Origin: Thermus thermophilus
GTDB taxonomy: Bacteria; Deinococcota; Deinococci; Deinococcales; Thermaceae
Assembly (NCBI RefSeq): GCF_019974155.1
Contig: NZ_AP025158.1
Span: 1,302,001 to 1,366,000 of the forward strand
Direction: 5' to 3'
Length of the DNA stretch: 64,000 nt
In this document: positions 3,908 through 7,844 of the stretch, in pieces
Numbering within the stretch: the stretch's first letter is position 1
How the letters are laid out: every line of letters starts with the position of its first letter
Made by a program: the position numbers and the translations under genes
The notes under the pieces: generated by a model
What the model saw: the letters and a program-made list of their open reading frames with translations, nothing else
The model's database searches: none
Told to the model about the DNA's origin: nothing

Positions 3908-5478
<1,571 letters not shown>

Positions 5479-5497
5479 CGTGGGGTACCATGAGGCC

Positions 5498-5647
5498 ATG
5501 GTGAAGGCCGAGGAAGCCCTGGCGGAGCTTCTCAACCGGGTGCGGGTGCTCCCCCCGCAAAAGGCCCGCAGGAAGCGTCCCAAGCCGGTGCTCCTGAAGG
5601 GAGAAACGCCCCCTCTCCATGAACTCCTCACCCGGGAACGGCGCTAA
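5498..5647 (+). CDS. bbc: Small basic protein between pyrB and pyrC (bbc), possible antitoxin
   Basis: ATG 5498 opens a 49-residue, Arg/Lys/Pro-rich frame (MVKAEEALAELLNRVRVLPP, then ARRKRPKPVLLKGE). It ends 29 bases inside the following PIN-domain gene. A gene between pyrB and pyrC was named bbc in Thermus ZO5, as I recall. The size, the overlap with a PIN protein and an N-terminal amphipathic helix followed by a basic, unstructured tail are what one sees in VapB-type antitoxins. No DNA-binding fold is recognisable, so the antitoxin role is inferred from context only. Confidence 0.6.
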   Translation: MVKAEEALAELLNRVRVLPPQKARRKRPKPVLLKGETPPLHELLTRERR

Positions 5648-6083
5648 GGTTTTCTTCGCCGACACCAGCGCCCTCCTCTACCTCGTGGTGGACCACCCCG
5701 GCGAGCCCTTCGCCTGGGTTCGGGGCCTCCTCCGGGAGGCCCCCCTGGCGGCCTGCGACCTCTTCCTTCCGGAAGCCGTGGCCGCCCTAAGGGGGCGCCG
5801 GGACGGGGGCCACCTGAGCCCGAGGGGCTTTCGGAAGGCGGTGCGGTCTCTGGAAGAGCTGCTCCCGAGCCTTTACCTCGTGGAAAGCGGCCTGGCCCTG
5901 ATGCAGGCGGCAAGCCTCCTTGCCCGCGAGCATCCCTTGCGGGGGGCGGACGCCGTCCACCTGGCGGCCATGGCCCTTTTTCGCCAGGTTTCGGGGGTGT
6001 TCTTGACCCTGGACCGCAGGCAATACCGGGTGGCCAAGGTCCTGGTGCCCACCCACCCGGTGCCCGAACTGGAGGAAGCATGA
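5619..6083 (+). CDS. PIN-domain ribonuclease (VapC-like)
   Basis: The 154-residue protein shows the four acidic positions of the PIN nuclease fold: D15 in [14 protein letters not shown]52 in [13 protein letters not shown]111 in [12 protein letters not shown] and D132 in [13 protein letters not shown]. VapC toxins with this fold cut tRNA or rRNA and are neutralised by a small partner made from the same transcript; the upstream bbc frame overlaps it by 29 bases. Its stop overlaps the pyrC start (ATGA), so it is translated with the pyr operon. Whether it is a toxin or has been tamed for an RNA-processing role in pyrimidine control is open. Confidence 0.8.
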
Positions 6084-7360
6084 TCCTGATCCGAAACGTA
6101 CGGCTCGTGGACGCTACGGGGGAACGCGGCCCCCTGGACGTCCTCATCGGCGAAGGGAGGATCCTCTCCCTGGAAGGCGGCGAGGCGAAGCAGGTGGTGG
6201 ACGGCACGGGGTGCTTCCTCGCCCCGGGGTTTTTAGACCTCCACGCCCACCTCCGCGAGCCCGGGGAGGAGGTGAAGGAGGACCTCTTCTCGGGGCTTCT
6301 CGCGGCGGTGCGGGGCGGGTACACGGACCTCGTCTCCATGCCCAACACCAAGCCCCCTGTGGACACCCCGGAGGCGGTGCGGGCCCTCAAGGAGAAGGCC
6401 AAGGCCCTGGGCCTCGCAAGGCTCCACCCCGCGGCCGCCCTCACCCTGGGCCAGGAAGGGAAGCACCTCGCCCCGGCGGGGCTTCTCCGGGAGGCGGGGG
6501 CGGTCCTCCTCACGGACGACGGCCGCACCAACGAGGACGCCGGGGTCTTGGCGGCGGGGCTCCTCATGGCCGCGCCCCTAGGCCTCCCCGTGGCGGTGCA
6601 CGCGGAGGACGCGGGCCTAAGGCGAAATGGGGTGATGAACGACGGGCCCTTGGCGGACCTCCTGGGCCTTCCCGGAAACCCCCCGGAGGCCGAGGCCGCC
6701 CGCATCGCCCGGGACCTCGAGGTCCTGCGCTACGCCTTAAGGCGAAGCCAGGCCACCCCCCGCCTCCACGTCCAACACCTCTCCACGAAGCGGGGCCTGG
6801 AGCTCGTCCGGGAGGCCAAGCGAGGGGGCCTCCCCGTGACCGCCGAGGCCACCCCCCACCACCTCACCCTCACGGAAGAGGCCCTAAAGGCCTTTGACCC
6901 CCTCTTCAAGGTGGCCCCGCCCCTCCGCACCCGGGAGGACCGGGAGGCCCTCGTGGAGGGGCTTCTTGACGGCACCCTGGACGCCATCGCCACCGACCAC
7001 GCCCCCCACACCCTGTCGGAGAAGGAGATGGACCTCCTGAGGGCCCCCTTCGGCATCCCGAGCCTCGAGGTGGCCTTCCCCCTCCTTTACACCGAGCTCC
7101 ACCTGAAGCGGGGCTTTCCCCTGCAAAGGCTCGTGGAGCTTTTCACCGACGGCCCCAGGCGGGTCCTGGGCCTTTCCCCTATTCACCTGGAGGAAGGGGC
7201 CGAGGCGAGCCTCGTCCTCCTCTCCCCCAAGGAGCGCCCCGTGGACCCCAGGGCCTTCGCCTCCAAGGCCCGCTACTCCCCCTGGGCGGGGTGGGTCCTC
7301 GGAGGGTGGCCCGTCCTCACCCTGGTGGAGGGGCGGATCGTCCACGAGGCGCTAAAATAG
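6080..7360 (+). CDS. pyrC: Dihydroorotase (class I, zinc)
   Basis: The 426-residue amidohydrolase has the metal-binding motif [14 protein letters not shown], the segment [14 protein letters not shown], the metal-site His in [13 protein letters not shown] and the catalytic motif [15 protein letters not shown]. It cyclises carbamoyl aspartate to dihydroorotate, following PyrB. The ATG overlaps the stop of the PIN gene, so translation of pyrC depends on ribosomes passing through the PIN frame. The 3' end TAAAAT also looks like a -10 element for the next gene. Confidence 0.95.
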
Positions 7361-7364
7361 GGGC

Positions 7365-7844
7365 GTGCTGAAGAAGCTCCTGGAGGCGGATGCCATCGGC
7401 CTCAGGCTGGAGTGGGTGGGGGGGCTTCCCCTCTGGGAGGCCCAGCCCACCTACCGGCACCAGAAGGCGGTGGACCGGATCCGGCAAAGCCTCCGGCCCA
7501 AGGAGGGCGCCCCTTGCGCCTGCGTCCACGTGGCCACCGTCTACGTGCGCTTTCCCGACGGTTCCTACAAAAGGCCCGACATCGCCATCTTCTGCCGGGA
7601 ACCCGAGGAGCTGGACGAGGCCATCACCCTTCTCCCCGAGGCGGTGGTGGAGGTGGTGAGCCGGGGCTACGAGGCCAAGGACCTGGAGATCGGCCCCCGC
7701 TTCTACCTCTCCCAGGGGGTGAAGGACGTGGTGGTCTTTGACCCCTACACCCTTCTCGTCCTCCACCTGCGCCGCGATGGGGCCTCACGCTACGTTTCCC
7801 CGGTGGAACTGGAGCTGGAGGCGGGCTGCCTCCTCACCGTCTGA
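7365..7844 (+). CDS. Uma2-family (DUF820) putative endonuclease
   Basis: A 159-residue protein of the Uma2/DUF820 family, which has a restriction-endonuclease-like fold. The PD...E-type core is visible as RPDIAIFCREP and AVVEVVSRGYEAKDLE, followed by YLSQGVKDVVVFDPY. Family members are abundant in Cyanobacteria and Deinococcus-Thermus, but their biological role is not known. The start is GTG 7365, 5 bases after the pyrC stop. TAAAAT within the end of pyrC (7354-7359) could serve as a -10 element and make the mRNA leaderless, in addition to read-through from the pyr operon. Confidence 0.75.
   Translation: MLKKLLEADAIGLRLEWVGGLPLWEAQPTYRHQKAVDRIRQSLRPKEGAPCACVHVATVYVRFPDGSYKRPDIAIFCREPEELDEAITLLPEAVVEVVSRGYEAKDLEIGPRFYLSQGVKDVVVFDPYTLLVLHLRRDGASRYVSPVELELEAGCLLTV

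Follow-up and report, generated by a model that had tools for sequence, protein, structure and literature searches.

The window, meaning the whole stretch of 64,000 nucleotides of Thermus thermophilus DNA that was analysed, contains a pyr operon in which a small basic open reading frame (ORF) and a PIN-domain gene, together called the cassette in what follows, are found between pyrB and pyrC. The features of this region, numbered by their positions in the window, are the following:

3910–4022, forward strand: pyr leader, with a PyrR-binding-site-like RNA and an intrinsic-terminator-like hairpin, upstream of pyrR (Rfam RF00515).
4031–4576, forward strand: pyrR (ORF; Pribosyltran domain, 5.7e-22).
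4573–5478, forward strand: pyrB, aspartate carbamoyltransferase (OTCace_N and OTCace domains; junction comparison).
5463–6139, boundaries approximate: recombination patch that contains the cassette and reaches from the final codons of pyrB to about nucleotide 60 of pyrC.
5498–5647, forward strand: small ORF ('bbc'), a proposed antitoxin consisting of the toxin-binding tail only (frame, conservation beside PIN relatives, C-terminal 20 residues, model).
5619–5647, forward strand: overlap of 29 nt between the 3' end of the putative antitoxin gene and the 5' end of the putative toxin gene, also found in related loci.
5619–6083, forward strand: PIN-domain (VapC-like) putative toxin gene, 154 residues (PF01850, alignment, AF2 model, Foldseek).
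6080–7360, forward strand: pyrC, dihydroorotase (Amidohydrolase domain), starting within the PIN stop (ATGA).

The small ORF extends from the ATG at 5498 to the TAA at 5647 and specifies 49 residues (13 K/R versus 6 E). An alternative in-frame GTG at 5480 would lengthen the product to 55 residues, and the Shine-Dalgarno sequence GGGAGG, which ends 4 nt before this GTG, is better placed for it than for the ATG. The PIN ORF, from the ATG at 5619 to the TGA at 6083, shares 29 nt with the small ORF, and its stop has ATGA in common with the pyrC start codon at 6080. Both overlaps, as well as the four acidic residues of the PIN protein, had been pointed out in a preliminary description of the locus and can be read directly from the sequence. 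The 29-nt overlap recurs in the pyr loci of four other genomes (G043, G039, G038 and G036) and in the plasmid cousins G025 and pTP143. The cassette has only pyrB and pyrC as neighbours, with no regulator gene in between, and the junction comparison showed that the final pyrB codons in the window are unlike those of empty operons. Directly after pyrC, at 7365–7844, there is a nuclease-like gene of the Uma2 family (PF05685), and several other Thermus also have such a gene in the vicinity of pyrC; a role as a solo toxin has been proposed for Uma2 (PMC2701414).

The leader at 3910–4022 is matched over its full length by RF00515 with 37.5 bits, below the gathering score of 54, and E 0.03, and it ends in a terminator-like element at 3992–4011 formed by a hairpin plus CTCTTTTT. 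The pair was originally described as embedded in the operon, and it does lie behind this candidate PyrR-type leader upstream of pyrR. A scan with the sigma-70 consensus revealed no sigma-70-like promoter between 3600 and 9500, and the leader appears to be the sole promoter-level control in sight for the cassette.

The PIN protein is matched by PF01850 of Pfam (E 1.9e-7, 32.2 bits versus a cut-off of 23.6). Its catalytic acids D15, E52, D111 and D132 are all present; in an alignment with 12 relatives, the last three are invariant and the position of D15 is occupied by D or E. Using its AlphaFold (AF2) model (pLDDT 89.4) as a query, Foldseek retrieved PAE0151, an M. tuberculosis VapBC toxin (5x3t) and M. 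tuberculosis VapC20, with E between 3e-8 and 6e-5, so that the PIN fold and the four conserved acids by which VapBC toxins are recognized are both found here. NCBIfam gave no VapC match for the protein, and one of the 12 relatives reaches E 0.055. On the basis of the model, the protein is best described as VapC-like in fold, with a putative role as a toxin. In comparison with the most distant pyr copy, that of G038, the PIN gene shows a dN of 0.31 and a dS of 1.32; a dN/dS of ~0.2–0.3, together with intact frames and retention of the four acids in four genomes, points to purifying selection. This selection, together with the recurrence of the 29-nt overlap in plasmid cousins and three further pyr operons, argues that the pairing of the two genes is more than chance.

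The product of the small ORF, Bbc, has no match in Pfam or NCBIfam, and no Pfam DNA-binding family was detected in it or in 12 relatives. The Phd DNA-binding domain (PF02604) is likewise absent from Bbc, which thus falls outside the Phd/YefM family. No match was found for a Bbc-like profile among PDB sequences, nor by PADLOC. That the small ORF might be a spurious frame was considered and ruled out, as a short ORF whose Arg-rich tail ends in RR or RK precedes the PIN gene in all 20 related Thermaceae loci with a readable start. In these same 20 loci the arrangement of VapBC systems, in which an upstream overlapping antitoxin gene is inherited with the toxin, is therefore present, and the possibility that bbc would be missing where the PIN gene occurs was checked and not borne out. 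The pyr and plasmid groups share an overlap of 29 nt and the Meiothermus group has one of 23 nt, and most loci show one of these two conserved lengths; for a fourth group the value is 4 or -2 nt.

More distant PIN relatives, encoded in Deltaproteobacteria, Thermodesulfovibrionia, Holophagales and Isoptericola, are paired with Phd-type antitoxins. Eight of these were aligned; every one is matched by PF02604, and the majority have a terminal tail of the type VPIKGKPLSKIVVEERR. The last 20 residues of Bbc were compared with such tails in a manner anchored at the C-terminus, with 978 unrelated C-termini as background. Bbc scored 22.3 against Phd/HTH-VapB tails, with unrelated C-termini reaching at most 12.5 (none of the 978 as high), and 20.4 against the tail-only cousins, with unrelated C-termini reaching at most 17.8; only true antitoxins of the loci in the set outscore Bbc. 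Because a whole-length HMM of Phd-VapB tails fails on Bbc (0.2 bits, with 1242 of 2000 shuffles as high), the link to VapB is confined to the C-terminal 20 residues and synteny. The model of Bbc consists of a helix (residues 2–14), an extended stretch (15–39) and a second helix (40–48), and contains no DNA-binding fold; its low pTM of 0.26 is as would be expected for an isolated tail. Given the tail similarity, the co-occurrence with the PIN gene, the model and the absence of a family match, we read Bbc as a putative antitoxin without a DNA-binding domain. The toxin-binding C-terminal tail of VapBC antitoxins is recognized in it by C-terminal similarity alone, the binding itself being predicted, and neither an N-terminal DNA-binding domain nor autorepression emerged from the family searches, the model or the promoter scan. 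Antitoxin tails are often acidic, and the basic character of Bbc counts against its reading as an antitoxin. The earlier proposal of a VapBC-like pair nevertheless gains support, in that the PIN fold is nearest to VapC structures, the partner is always beside the PIN gene and the tail resembles Phd-VapB tails. Two loci from other Deinococcota families (L096 and L092) encode members of the same PIN clade, and their antitoxins have similar tails and long N-terminal parts that differ from Phd and look like helix-turn-helix domains, which suggests a modular tail that may be attached to various DNA-binding domains or occur without any.

When considered across the Thermaceae, the pyrB-pyrC junction is empty in 44 of 49 genomes and filled by the pair in four, and in the remaining genome a decayed toxin gene stands next to an intact antitoxin gene. 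Within Thermus, pyrB and pyrC adjoin in 22 of 27 genomes with a gap of at most 28 bp, mostly with a 4-nt overlap, and all 22 junctions of other Thermaceae with a pyrC match are empty as well, with gaps of at most 89 bp. The intact pair is carried by the genome of the window, Thermus sp. JCM 17653 (G043), T. parvatiensis RL (G039) and G038, and the pyr-embedded PIN proteins form a single clade (support 100/99). In G036, the small ORF is intact and the PIN gene has lost E52 and D111 through internal deletions and has an early TAG after them. The same combination of a dead toxin and an intact antitoxin was seen once more, on pTT27 of T. thermophilus HB27, and such loss of the toxin with the antitoxin kept is the pattern expected of a true pair. 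The idea of a conserved Thermus pyr gene was rejected, as the pair is missing from most Thermaceae junctions. The conservation that the preliminary description suggested checking holds for both genes and the acidic residues in four genomes and does not extend to all Thermus; a general role in the Thermus pyr operon is not supported, given the empty junctions and the one Thermus with a dead toxin.

The near-identical empty operon of T. arciformis (G028) served as the reference for delimiting the recombination patch. The window differs from it at 11 positions in nt 1–890 of pyrB, and in pyrC at 14 positions in nt 1–60 and at 6 in nt 61–600. The 5' patch of pyrC in the window is 94–96% identical to the carriers G036, G039 and G043 and 88% identical to G028, whereas the rest of pyrC shows the reverse, the window being nearer to G028 than to these carriers. 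Across close carriers, the cassette and its immediate flanks are 93–98% identical, and the outer flanks are often lower, down to 82–92%. These mosaics in pyrB and pyrC indicate that homologous recombination within the neighbouring genes transfers the cassette or erases it. Either gain or loss may underlie the difference between the window and G028, and the empty junctions in 44 of 49 Thermaceae favour gain within Thermus.

Relatives of the cassette are also found away from pyr genes. Plasmid cousins in Thermus and Allomeiothermus, free-standing on megaplasmids and annotated as a VapC family toxin plus a hypothetical protein, encode PIN proteins that are 40–44% identical and a tail-only partner of 58 residues. 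On pTT27 of HB27 (L117, 3350–5368), a TnpB-related (IS200/IS605) gene interrupts the cousin toxin, and the intact short antitoxin frame is annotated merely as a hypothetical protein. Near the antitoxin start of the free-standing Thermus copies there are TAGACT- or TAGGAT-like motifs, which are read as their own promoters from the sequence; no such motif was found near the antitoxin start of the pyr copy. In Meiothermus (L012, L015, L017, L018, L020; context in L115), a pair of tail-only antitoxin and PIN genes lies directly upstream of, and overlaps, a packaging-ATPase gene. The host element is a P23-77/IN93-like provirus (ATPase 77–78% identical), free phages of this kind have a small ORF at that position instead of the pair, and a search of phage records for the PIN cousin gave no match.

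The placement of Bbc between pyrB and pyrC also accommodates the explanation that it serves the aspartate carbamoyltransferase-dihydroorotase complex as a regulatory subunit for feedback inhibition, with the PIN gene being incidental. In a 1997 paper on Thermus ZO5, the bbc product was reportedly suggested to influence how the ATCase–DHOase complex is feedback-inhibited; the name presumably stems from that work, where it may denote either ORF, the small one or the PIN gene. Since the cassette is missing from most Thermaceae, with pyrB and pyrC occurring without Bbc in 22 of 27 Thermus and 22 of 22 other Thermaceae, a general role of Bbc in this feedback is argued against, and, far away from any pyr genes, plasmids and a provirus carry cousin short ORFs that have PIN genes as partners. 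We consider this explanation improbable, and the same is true of a domesticated, non-toxic PIN RNase that would act with its partner as a local regulator of pyr mRNA. The latter would be consistent with the operon position, the overlap with pyrC and the purifying selection on the PIN gene, but the pyr operon of G036 persists with a dead toxin, and the cassette is missing from the near-identical operon of G028 and from most species. Finally, patchy presence and the decay in G036 would fit a neutral remnant of a transferred toxin-antitoxin locus that is functionless by now; intact frames with all four acids in four genomes and a dN/dS of ~0.2–0.3 make this highly improbable.

We find it probable that the two genes constitute a VapBC-like type II toxin-antitoxin cassette lodged in a host operon. 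The sequence itself shows the gene anatomy, co-occurrence, tail similarity, the absence of a recognizable DNA-binding domain, patchy distribution and the recombination patch; what we infer beyond it is co-transcription, toxicity, binding, an RNase target, addiction and a response to pyrimidines. The PIN protein would be a VapC-type RNase toxin, and Bbc would be reduced to the toxin-binding part, namely a first helix, a basic/proline linker in extended form (KPVLLKGE) and, at the C-terminus, a helix whose last residues are ERR. As in VapBC complexes, Bbc may wrap around a PIN dimer and insert its terminal arginines into the acidic active site. The DNA-binding domain by which VapB proteins repress their own promoter would have been lost. 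Because Bbc is devoid of such a domain, control of the level would come from PyrR attenuation, the cassette having no recognized promoter and being presumably co-transcribed with pyrR-pyrB-pyrC, and the antitoxin:toxin ratio would probably come from translational coupling via the 29-nt overlap. Homologous recombination in pyrB and pyrC on either side would carry the cassette from one Thermus genome to another, and an empty allele replacing it would free the more stable toxin, thereby favouring its keeping; hypothetically, pyrimidine status may also free the toxin, and replacement by an empty allele may be punished, much as the preliminary description proposed for pyrimidine supply and for loss of the operon. 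A more far-reaching proposal, which we put forward tentatively and would not call probable, is that a Thermaceae cassette lineage has shed its own regulator and, as a passenger in operons and replicons (the pyr operon, the structural operon of a P23-77-like provirus, megaplasmids), borrows host regulation; for the pyr copy, this would couple the freeing of the toxin to PyrR-controlled pyrimidine status and shield the operon against being replaced.

According to published descriptions (PMC2701414), type II antitoxins have two domains and bind DNA as well as the toxin. The pyr cassette resembles VapBC systems with a Phd/YefM-type VapB, such as M. tuberculosis VapBC5 (3DBO), in the downstream PIN toxin, the overlapping upstream antitoxin gene and the same kind of C-terminal tail, but differs from them in that Bbc has no recognizable Phd, AbrB, RHH or HTH DNA-binding domain and in that the cassette is enclosed by a biosynthetic operon and shows no sign of an autoregulated promoter. 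An antitoxin without a DNA-binding domain is shared with the three-component systems omega-epsilon-zeta and PaaR-PaaA-ParE (PMC5086665), which, in contrast, have a third gene for a repressor, where in the pyr cassette control would come from PyrR, and whose toxins belong to a family other than PIN. The plasmid cousins in Thermus and Allomeiothermus are free-standing, whereas the pyr cassette is embedded in an operon. A literature search on toxin–antitoxin pairs in pyr operons found nothing relevant.

If the reading is true, a family of tail-only antitoxins residing in a metabolic operon that has a regulator of its own would mean that autoregulation is dispensable, and a different explanation would be offered for the 'bbc' gene of the Thermus pyr cluster. 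Empty, filled and decayed alleles occur naturally in close relatives and can be compared, and the pyr cassette would be a natural case for testing whether toxin–antitoxin pairs on chromosomes guard the operon around them.
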